The notes under the pieces are model-generated. The model saw only the letters and a list, made by a program, of their open reading frames with translations. It did no database searches and was not told where the DNA came from. A stretch of 42,514 nt of DNA, taken from positions 1 to 42,514 of the forward strand of contig NBMF01000002.1 in NCBI GenBank assembly GCA_002084825.1, in the 5' to 3' direction. The stretch comes from Fusobacteriia bacterium 4572_74 (GTDB taxonomy: Bacteria; Fusobacteriota; Fusobacteriia; Fusobacteriales; Fusobacteriaceae). This document shows positions 6,584-13,970 of the stretch, in pieces. The position numbers and the translations under genes are program-made. The first letter of the stretch is position 1, and each line of letters starts with the position of its first letter.

Positions 6584-7498
6584 ATGGATATAAAGAAATA
6601 TGCTCAGGAAATATTTGATATTGAAATAAAGGAATTAAAAAAAGTAAAGGATAAGATAGGAAAAGAAATGGAGAGAACAGCCAAGCTGATTATGGGCTGT
6701 AAGGGAAAGGTTGTTATCACTGGGATCGGAAAATCTGGAATAGTAGGGAAAAAAATAGCAGCTACCTTAGCTTCTACAGGAACATTGACCGTATTTATGA
6801 ACTCAGCTGAAGGTCTTCATGGAGATCTTGGAATGGTGCATAGAGAAGATATAGTAATTGCTATATCAAATTCAGGAAACAGTGATGAAGTGGTATCGAT
6901 AATCCCGTCGATAAAAAAAATTGGTGCAAAATTAATAGCTATGACTGGAAATAAAAAATCTAAATTGGGGATAGAATCAGATGAAATATTGGATATAGGC
7001 GTTGAAATGGAAGCCTGTCCTATGAATATAGCTCCTACTTGCTCCACTACAGCCACTATGGTTATGGGAGATGCTTTAGCATCGGTACTAGTTAAACTAA
7101 GAAATTTTAAGCCGGAAAATTTTGCTGTATATCACCCTGGAGGCAGCCTTGGCAGAAGACTACTCATGAAGGTTAAAGATGTAATGCATAGTGGATTTGA
7201 TCTTGCAATTGTAGAAAAAGATACCAATATAGATGAAATATTGGTAACTATGACAAAGAAAAAATTAGGAGCTGTCTGTGTATTAGAAAACGAGATGATG
7301 ATAGGAATAATCACAGAGGGAGATATCAGAAGAGCATTGAAAAATAAAGAAGAGTTTTTCACCTATAACGCCAAGGATATCATGAGTTCCAAATTCACCT
7401 ATATTGAAGCTGAAAAGATGGCTGTAGATGCATTGGAACTCATGGAAAATAGGAAGAGTCAAATCTCAGTATTACCTGTATTAGAAGGACAATATTGA
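6584..7498 (+). CDS. kdsD: KpsF/GutQ-type arabinose-5-phosphate isomerase, C-terminus short
   Basis: The enzyme interconverts ribulose 5-phosphate and arabinose 5-phosphate, the first step of Kdo synthesis for lipopolysaccharide. The N-terminal SIS domain (VVITGIGKSGIVGKKIAATLASTGT and ISNSGNSDEV, residues 45-110; NIAPTCSTTATMVMGDALA near 150) is followed by two CBS domains (about 185-304). The protein stops at SVLPVLEGQY. Family members usually continue with roughly 15-20 more residues (a LIGILR-HDL-type end), so the second CBS domain appears clipped. The start follows CAGGGGGAAC. The gene implies a diderm cell with Kdo-containing LPS. It lies 18 bases upstream of the selenoprotein gene. Confidence 0.85.
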   Translation: MDIKKYAQEIFDIEIKELKKVKDKIGKEMERTAKLIMGCKGKVVITGIGKSGIVGKKIAATLASTGTLTVFMNSAEGLHGDLGMVHREDIVIAISNSGNSDEVVSIIPSIKKIGAKLIAMTGNKKSKLGIESDEILDIGVEMEACPMNIAPTCSTTATMVMGDALASVLVKLRNFKPENFAVYHPGGSLGRRLLMKVKDVMHSGFDLAIVEKDTNIDEILVTMTKKKLGAVCVLENEMMIGIITEGDIRRALKNKEEFFTYNAKDIMSSKFTYIEAEKMAVDALELMENRKSQISVLPVLEGQY

Positions 7499-7516
7499 TT
7501 TTAGGAGGAGTTAAAA

Positions 7517-7717
7517 ATGGTAAACAAAGATATGGGTATATTAGATGCTGTACAACAATATCCAGTAATAGTTCAAGTATTTCAAAGATATGGCCTTGGG
7601 TGAGTTGGTTGTATGGTAGCCTCAGGTGAGAGCTTAGGAGAAGGAATCGCATCACACGGATTAAATGCTGATATTGTAATTGAAGAAATGAATAAATTAA
7701 TTAAAGAGACTAAGTAA
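7517..7717 (+). CDS. DUF1858 redox-disulfide protein, probable selenoprotein (UxxC)
   Basis: Reading TGA at 7601-7603 as an amino acid gives one 66-residue protein ending at TAA 7715-7717. It has the full DUF1858 (hybrid-cluster-protein-associated redox disulfide) pattern: DMGILDAVQQYPVIVQVFQRYGLG, then U29-V-G-C32-M, then ASGESLGEGIASHGLN and a helical end. The family has CxxC at this place, so the TGA replaces the first Cys (residue 29). Sequence similarity continues in the same frame right after the TGA, and a hairpin suited to a bacterial SECIS follows. The alternative is a nonsense mutation, which would not explain the position or the hairpin. The start follows TTAGGAGGAG. Sec machinery genes are not in this window. 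Confidence 0.85.
7618..7634 (+). promoter_or_regulatory. Putative bacterial SECIS hairpin
   Basis: Fourteen bases after the in-frame TGA, AGC-CTC pairs with GAG-(A)-GCT with a single bulged A, closing an AGGT apical loop. A short stem with a bulge and a GG/GGU-containing loop, about 11-16 nt after UGA, is what bacterial SelB recognises (compare the E. coli fdhF element). It is inside the coding frame and compatible with the protein sequence. Confidence 0.65.
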
Positions 7718-7740
7718 TTTTATTAAGTTATTTATATAAA

Positions 7741-7773
7741 AAGACCCTTGAAAATTCAAAGGTCTTTTTTTTA
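7741..7773. terminator. Bidirectional terminator between convergent genes
   Basis: AAGACC-c-TTGAA pairs with TTCAA-a-GGTCTT around a 2-base loop. A T-run follows on the plus strand and an A-rich tract precedes it, so it can serve both the selenoprotein gene and the convergent TauE/SafE gene. Confidence 0.85.
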
Positions 7774-7796
7774 TTGATATATATATTATAATTTTA

Positions 7797-8546
7797 TTAG
7801 CTAACCATACCGTAAATCATTTTGCTAGCCATAACTAGAGACATAACAATAAAAATAGGCTTTATAAATTTAGCTCCATTCTTTATAGCCATCTTAGAAC
7901 CTAACTTAGAACCTAAGATCATAAATACTGTAGAAATAAGGCCGTATCTAAAGTTCACTTGTCCATTGTATAAAAAAGTAAGGAGAGCAGCAAAACCAGT
8001 GGTTAAATTCAATACCTTAGTATTAGCAGTGGCAACAGTAAAATCAAATTTAAAAATTTTAACTAGACCAAACATAAAAAATGTTCCTGTACCGGGGCCA
8101 AAGAACCCGTCGTAAAACCCTAAAATAGAGGTTAATATTTTACCTAAAAATTTATTTTTAGGAGTAAATCCGTCAAATGAATTTATCATGCCTACTTTTT
8201 TAGAGATAACAGTGTAGATAGCCACTCCAAAAATCATAAATGGGATTAGTACCTCTAATATATCAGGGGCAATAAATTGTAAAGCACTTACACCAATAAC
8301 TGCTCCTACAAATGCAAAGGGAATCATGAGCTTAAGTAATTTGAAATTTAATTTATTGTTCTTAAAAAATTCATGACTGCTGACCATAGCCCCTGCAGAA
8401 GCAGCTAGTTTATTTGTTCCTAAGGCAAGATGAGGTGGGAGGCCTACTAAAAGCAGTGTAGGAGTACTAATCAACCCTCCTCCTCCAGCGATAGAGTCAA
8501 TAAATCCAGCTATAAACATTCCTAATCCGATCAATAAAATTTCCAT
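7797..8546 (-). CDS. TauE/SafE (TSUP) family membrane transporter
   Basis: The 249-residue integral membrane protein has about seven to eight hydrophobic segments. The N-terminal MFIAGFIDSIAGGGGLISTPTLL and the internal GFYDGFFGPGTGTFFMFG are the two repeats typical of the TSUP family, which moves sulfite, sulfonates or related anions. The substrate cannot be inferred from sequence. A GGAGGAAC site precedes the ATG. It shares the minus strand with the BCCT gene upstream but is separated by about 150 bases, so it may be independently transcribed. Confidence 0.85.
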   Translation of the reverse strand: MEILLIGLGMFIAGFIDSIAGGGGLISTPTLLLVGLPPHLALGTNKLAASAGAMVSSHEFFKNNKLNFKLLKLMIPFAFVGAVIGVSALQFIAPDILEVLIPFMIFGVAIYTVISKKVGMINSFDGFTPKNKFLGKILTSILGFYDGFFGPGTGTFFMFGLVKIFKFDFTVATANTKVLNLTTGFAALLTFLYNGQVNFRYGLISTVFMILGSKLGSKMAIKNGAKFIKPIFIVMSLVMASKMIYGMVS

Positions 8547-10742: not shown

Positions 10743-10971
10743 GTGTCAAGTTGTTGTAGGTTTTTTAAAAAATCCCTAATTTAATTGATTTCAGCCCATT
10801 CATCATGGTTTGTAATCCATTTACTTTTCCTATTGATAAAACTGATATATTTCCTAGTGTTTCCATGGTTAAACGCTTAATTCTTTTAATATTTTTTACT
10901 ACTTTATATTTTTCTTTGGATTCTTTTTGATTTACATTTTTTAAAATTATTGTTATTTCTTTTCTAGTCAT
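10743..10971 (-). mobile_element. Possible transposase 3' remnant
   Basis: A 68-residue minus-strand frame (10765-10971; basic N-part, ending KSIKLGIF) stops about 20 bases before TGTCAAGTTGTTGTAGG at 10743-10759. This resembles the terminal sequence at 11006-11021 in the same orientation. A basic C-terminal fragment ending next to an inverted-repeat-like sequence is what the tail of an insertion sequence looks like. The family was not recognised, and the frame may not be expressed. Confidence 0.35.
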
Positions 10972-11005
10972 TCTATTTAATATTGATATCCTTACCTGGT
11001 ATTAC

Positions 11006-11100
11006 GTCAAGTTTTTGGACAATATTTTTTTCGCTTGTTAAGAATATTTTTTGTAATCAAGAGGAGACTTCCAGTTTAATTTTTTCTCAAATCCCCCCAT
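11006..11100 (-). mobile_element. IS3-family insertion sequence, 3' end remnant
   Basis: On the minus strand, a frame ending at TAA 11038-11040 reads GGFEKKLNWKSPLDYKKYS, the typical C-terminus of an IS3/IS150-group orfB transposase (K-LNW-SPxEY). It is followed at 11021-11006 by TGTCCAAAAACTTGAC, a typical IS3-type end. Everything upstream in the transposase is missing. The break point, near 11100, falls against the truncated tetR gene. Confidence 0.6.
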
Positions 11101-13022: not shown

Positions 13023-13970
13023 TTGAAATATTTTGCAGGGGTAGATTTGGGAGGAACAAATACAAAAATAGGCATTTTGGATGAAAATGGTGAAATTTTA
13101 ATAAAAGAAACAATAAAGACATTTTCAGAAAAAGGTATGGAAACAACCTTGAAAAGAATATGGGAAACCATAGAAAACCTAATGGATAAAAAAAACATAA
13201 GTAAAGAAAAGCTGGGTGGAATAGGAATAGGAATTCCAGGACCTGTAATAAATCAAGAAATTGTAGCTTTTTTTGCTAATTTTGACTGGGAAGTTAATGT
13301 CAATATCAGTGAAATAATGGAAAAAATATCAGGTGTGCCAACAAAATTAGAAAATGATGTAAATATGATAGCTATTGGAGAAAGTAAATTTGGAGCAGGA
13401 AAGGGAAGTAGTAGCAGTATTACAGTGGCTCTTGGAACAGGAATTGGTGGTGGAATAGTAGTAAATTCTAAGTTGGTTTCAGGAATGAATGGTGCTGGTG
13501 GAGAGATTGGTCATATGAAATTAGTTGAAAATGGAAAATTATGCGGCTGTGGACAAAGAGGTTGTTTTGAAGCTTATGCATCCGCTACTGGAGTAATTAG
13601 AGAAGCTAAATCACGTCTAGCTGTAAATAAAAATAATCTTTTATATAGGAGTTTGGATGGAAATATAGAAAAATTAGAAGCAAAAGATGTCTTTGACTGT
13701 GCTAAAGCCGGAGATGAATTTTCTATGGAGATAGTAAATTATGTAGGGAATTATTTAGGTATGGGAATAGGAAATTTATTGAATGTAATAAATCCAGAAA
13801 TCATTATTTTATCAGGTGGAGTTGCATTAGCAGGAGAGATACTTTTGGATGTAGTTAATAAAAAATTAAAGCAATATGCTATGCCGGTAACTTTGAAAAA
13901 CTTAGAAATTAAATTAGGAGAGTTAGGAAATGATGCTGGAATCAAAGGTGGAATTGCACTTTTCTTATAA
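13023..13970 (+). CDS. ROK family sugar kinase (glucokinase-like)
   Basis: The 315-residue cytoplasmic sugar kinase has the N-terminal ATP-phosphate loop GVDLGGTNTKIGI and the catalytic Asp region KLENDVNMIAIGE. ALGTGIGGGIVVN follows, with the ROK zinc site HMKLVENGKLCGCGQRGCFEAYAS (His plus CxCGxxGC). Phosphorylation of glucose, ManNAc or another hexose is possible; the sequence resembles glucokinases most. It starts at a TTG, justified by TAGGGGGAGG seven bases before and by the conserved MKYFAGVDLGG start. The upstream aldolase-like remnant is the only context clue. Confidence 0.88.
   Translation: MKYFAGVDLGGTNTKIGILDENGEILIKETIKTFSEKGMETTLKRIWETIENLMDKKNISKEKLGGIGIGIPGPVINQEIVAFFANFDWEVNVNISEIMEKISGVPTKLENDVNMIAIGESKFGAGKGSSSSITVALGTGIGGGIVVNSKLVSGMNGAGGEIGHMKLVENGKLCGCGQRGCFEAYASATGVIREAKSRLAVNKNNLLYRSLDGNIEKLEAKDVFDCAKAGDEFSMEIVNYVGNYLGMGIGNLLNVINPEIIILSGGVALAGEILLDVVNKKLKQYAMPVTLKNLEIKLGELGNDAGIKGGIALFL

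Follow-up and report, generated by a model that had tools for sequence, protein, structure and literature searches.

The window, i.e. the whole stretch of 42,514 nucleotides that was analysed, contains at positions 7517–7717 of the forward strand a frame of 66 codons running from ATG to TAA (stop included in the coordinates) with a single internal TGA at 7601–7603. Its translation is MVNKDMGILDAVQQYPVIVQVFQRYGLG-U-VGCMVASGESLGEGIASHGLNADIVIEEMNKLIKETK. The TGA takes the place of residue 29, which is the first position of a UxxC motif in the context GLG-U-VGC, and the second position, residue 32, is a putative resolving Cys encoded by TGT at 7610–7612 (forward strand). A ribosome-binding site, AGGAGGAG (aggaggag), lies 5' of the ATG at 7504–7511 on the same strand and is similar in relatives. 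With Cys placed at the TGA, the protein matches TIGR03980 (prismane_assoc, hybrid cluster protein-associated redox disulfide domain) over its full length with 73.5 bits (protein residues 2–59 on model positions 1–58; cut-off 44.95 bits) and PF08984 (DUF1858) with 49.5 bits (cut-off 32.2 bits). Both curated cut-offs are thus passed over the whole domain with the alignment spanning the TGA. This agrees with the original prediction, in which the TGA coincided precisely with the first of the two Cys in the family's CxxC motif and was flanked by homologous sequence on both sides.

The upstream neighbour is a KpsF/GutQ-type sugar isomerase (SIS+CBS) at 6584–7498 of the forward strand, which ends in a true TGA stop; the linkage of both genes is kept in relatives. 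A permease of the TauE/SafE family (7797–8546, reverse strand) converges on the frame from the other side. Between them, an inverted repeat with a T-run (AAAGACC...GGTCTTTTTTTT; 7740–7774, no strand assigned) is a probable terminator common to the converging genes. It was not picked up by a simple terminator scan, probably because of a bulge. In seven relatives a consensus-like sigma-70 promoter, TTGACA-N17-TATAAT or TATACT, starts 73–75 nt before the DUF1858 start. The window genome is devoid of this promoter because about 100 nt are missing at window positions ~7485–7500, and the last ~15 residues of KpsF are lost as well; the gap is either a real deletion or an assembly collapse. The only other candidate from a simple scan of the window, a TGA-interrupted frame at 10805–11038, resembles noncoding AT-rich sequence and was discarded.

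Conservation of the TGA codon and of a downstream hairpin

A profile search detected TIGR03980 matches in 94 of 98 Fusobacteriota genomes. Eight genomes have a match holding one TGA, and none of the other matching loci of the 98 genomes contains a stop codon at all. The same eight were recovered by a strict sequence pattern applied to the whole phylum. Seven of them belong to the window's own genus and one to a second genus of the Fusobacteriaceae; three are near-complete assemblies (G002, G006 and G007). A comparison of the eight TGA genes with 13 Cys genes, as had been suggested for verification, revealed a clean Cys/Sec exchange in which the in-frame UGA is aligned to the Cys of the homologues. 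Two of six matches from a scan of the collection, L071 (Kangiellaceae) and L073 (Paludibacteraceae), are antisense to long ORFs and were judged to be due to chance.

A bSECIS-like hairpin, AGCCTC-AGGT-GAG(A)GCT, was found at 7618–7634 of the forward strand, its first base 14 nt downstream of the TGA. Its stem (7618–7623/7628–7634) consists of six base pairs with one bulged A, and the apical loop AGGU (7624–7627) carries a G at loop position 2 and starts 20 nt after the UGA. The bulged AGGT-loop hairpin that had been described 14 bases downstream is therefore present. According to Fig 2A of PMC13188914, the bSECIS consensus comprises an apical loop of 3–9 nt with G in position 1 or 2, a stem of 4–16 bp and a distance of 16–37 nt from the UGA. 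The hairpin agrees with this geometry in loop, stem, position of the G and spacing. The filter given in the same figure is an MFE of ≤ -7.5 kcal/mol, and the value of our hairpin varies with the folded length: -5.4 kcal/mol in 23 nt and -7.9 kcal/mol in 53 nt. Folding, which had been proposed as a check, thus yields a hairpin of bSECIS spacing with a conserved core and a marginal energy. Taken alone the hairpin is weak (-4.9 to -5.4 kcal/mol), and a 106-nt stretch around it has no extra stability compared with shuffled sequences (z +1.9). The energy of the wider region was consequently rejected as proof of a SECIS, and folding energy alone is insufficient.

More telling is the comparison of the codons. 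The 15-nt core GCC-TCA-GGT-GAG-AGC is identical in all eight TGA genes and intact in only one of the 13 Cys genes, that of G021, whereas the other 12 differ (Fisher 4e-5, a value that ignores kinship). Between the two TGA genera, core codons are identical in 35 of 35 comparisons, as against 132 of 226 (58%) for codons outside the core; over all comparisons, shared residues outside the core keep their codon in 75%. Given the codon usage of the window, the probability of obtaining precisely this core is ~8e-5, and only 75 of 4000 synonymous recodings (1.9%) produced a hairpin that had SECIS geometry and was just as stable. The frozen core and the rarity among synonymous recodings raise the hairpin above chance. 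In the window genus the outermost stem pair is A-U; G032 and G021 have U-A instead, and seven of the 12 remaining Cys genes have lost the pair. The exchange of A-U for U-A is compensatory, but as one pair and probably one event it is not statistically strong alone.

One could argue that the protein is indeed a selenoprotein, with the hairpin being a by-product of the conserved peptide ASGES and Sec inserted via another, non-standard element. The small hairpin energy would fit this explanation, as would the part of the stem that is also formed in Cys homologues (68% of cells paired). However, the codon choice is fixed in the TGA genes, all of which use the locally uncommon codons AGC and GCC, and drifts in the Cys genes, and the outer pair compensates. 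We therefore regard this explanation as improbable.

Decoding of the TGA codon

The genome of the window encodes all of SelA, SelB, SelC and SelD, the set that defines the machinery for bacterial selenoproteins. The genes selD, selA and selB are consecutive on contig C53 (29378–30289, 30425–31792 and 31816–33702), with matches of 590 bits for selA and 356 bits for selB, and a tRNA-Sec (selC) with the anticodon TCA is present. Moreover, selD has its own in-frame TGA, reading FCSGGG-U-TSK. A genome devoid of selB and selC, which had been named as evidence against a selenoprotein, is thus not the case here.

UGA read-through occurs in bacteria, and the homologues carry Cys at the position of residue 29. 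Hence, the UGA might be read by another tRNA, either a near-cognate Trp or Cys tRNA or one of a reassigned code, giving a selenium-free CxxC or WxxC protein. In the window, however, TGA is the stop of five of 26 long ORFs and also of kpsF just upstream, and Trp is encoded by TGG in 63 of 63 cases, so that a reassignment of the genetic code was rejected. The complete Sec machinery with its TGA-containing selD also stands against decoding by another tRNA, as does the SECIS-spaced hairpin, which is kept together with the TGA and elsewhere intact only in G021. In view of this, decoding by another tRNA is highly improbable.

Purifying selection at the protein level is indicated both 5' and 3' of the TGA. 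Between G000 and G032, pS is 0.57 and pN 0.22 before the TGA, with 0.47 and 0.15 after it; the corresponding values for G000 and G001 are 0.32 and 0.12 before and 0.42 and 0.06 after. Since the TGA is kept in eight genomes of two genera with such selection on both flanks, it is neither a sequencing error nor the mark of a pseudogene. A true stop, due to a pseudogene or to an error in sequencing or assembly, would be conceivable in view of the incomplete assembly of the window genome (63% complete), but has next to no likelihood, because the same TGA (not TGC or TGT, as an error would have implied) is found in eight separate assemblies including the near-complete ones and the second genus, pN is low 3' of it and the SECIS-like core is frozen.

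Consequently, the gene at 7517–7717 very probably encodes a selenoprotein, with Sec at UGA 7601–7603 presumably inserted via the hairpin at 7618–7634. The proposed UxxC redox selenoprotein is supported by the SECIS-like hairpin, the Sec machinery and the Cys/Sec exchange. Gene callers without selenoprotein rules would miss or split the locus in these genomes. Selenoprotein-aware tools could find the gene, and the term unannotatable used in the original prediction is therefore too strong.

Position of the predicted selenocysteine and its exchange with Cys

That Sec-containing members of the DUF1858 family may exist had been put forward as a mere belief. They do exist, and this is not an open matter, since two reviews (PMC9312934 and PMC13188914) list a DUF1858 selenoprotein with the motif CxxU. 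Their entry, WP_012065717.1, likewise belongs to PF08984 and has Sec within the CxxC motif. It is catalogued with Sec in the second position, in contrast to the UVGC of our gene, which hence falls outside the catalogued subfamily; the 2026 review treats differing Sec positions as separate subfamilies. The UxxC placement is absent for DUF1858 from the main tables of both reviews, and a literature search of partial coverage found no report of it in Fusobacteriota and nothing relevant on the family in Fusobacteria or Psychrilyobacter. Thus, the Sec-bearing family is known and the Sec position appears to be new. It adds to the current catalogue of the prokaryotic selenoproteome and extends the family to Fusobacteriota.

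The Cys-form orthologues of Fusobacteriota (TIGR03980) share the context GLGCxGC, and many of them are located beside kpsF. They have Cys in place of Sec, and the SECIS core is absent or a relic. When the Sec/Cys state is mapped on a tree of the neighbouring KpsF with 16 species, three or more changes are required. G005, with TGT, is nested within the Sec-bearing genus beside the window genome (support 94/89), and this position inside Sec users points to a Sec-to-Cys reversion. Its locus (L054, G005:C43:60400-63000) comprises the TGT orthologue with a decayed SECIS, and selA, selB, selD and tRNA-Sec are retained in this genome.

The orthologue of G021 (L058, G021:C54:15300-18000) has TGC together with an intact SECIS core, GCCTCAGGTGAGAGC. 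Like G005, G021 retains selB. Here the core is probably the fossil of a recent Sec gene after replacement of Sec by Cys. A less simple reading would be that the hairpin is older than Sec. With the relic in G021 and the reversion in G005, the Sec/Cys exchange is open to direct test. Overall, it is likely that UxxC represents a second Sec placement in DUF1858, confined to Fusobacteriaceae among the genomes searched, and that the series from Sec with SECIS via Cys with an intact SECIS relic to Cys with a decayed SECIS records a Sec-to-Cys reversion despite retained Sec machinery.

Predicted fold and redox role

An AlphaFold2 model from the single sequence has five helices and a mean pLDDT of 88.7, with two of five models being good. 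Residue 29 is located immediately before the helix formed by residues 30–36 in this model. The closest solved folds are 2k5e (TM 0.82) and 2k53 (TM 0.78, both by query length), NMR structures of the DUF1858 proteins GSU1278 and A3DK08, respectively, which match the predicted fold. Both are Cys proteins, in contrast to the putative Sec protein described here.

Thiol-redox proteins commonly place a chalcogenol at the start of a helix and another Cys one turn further on, which is a standard arrangement. Most likely, Sec29 is therefore the nucleophile and Cys32 the resolver, as judged from the model. According to the proposed mechanism, the hairpin at 7618–7634 of the mRNA would recruit SelB, which brings the Sec-tRNA(UCA), and the ribosome would insert selenocysteine at UGA 7601–7603. 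The product would be a five-helix DUF1858 domain with UxxC at a helix start, in which the selenolate of Sec29 attacks and Cys32 resolves, so that a selenenylsulfide would be made and broken while electrons are exchanged with a partner in either direction. This marks the first of the two motif Cys in DUF1858 as the likely attacking residue of the domain. UxxC selenoproteins of the thioredoxin, glutaredoxin and DsbA-like types likewise have UxxC at a helix start, with a likely nucleophile and a resolving Cys; the protein described here differs from them in being a predicted small all-helical domain without a thioredoxin fold.

In Bradyrhizobium, a DUF1858 gene is strongly dependent on NnrR, a regulator of denitrification (PMC6710368), and in Thermus DrpB, which contains a DUF1858 domain, is encoded together with nitrate respiration (PMC6282519). 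From these examples it may be guessed that the protein acts under redox stress or stress by nitrogen oxides. By analogy with the family name and other members, our best guess for the partner is the hybrid-cluster protein or enzymes of nitrogen-oxide or redox stress. No hcp gene is adjacent to the selenoprotein gene, whose neighbour is kpsF, and the prismane genes lie on another contig of the same genome. A hybrid-cluster (prismane) gene at G000:C1:11798-13428 is distributed over two frames that separate close to 12830, the second of them containing a TGA; an assembly frameshift is the probable cause. An intact second copy is located downstream on the same contig at 13860–15491.
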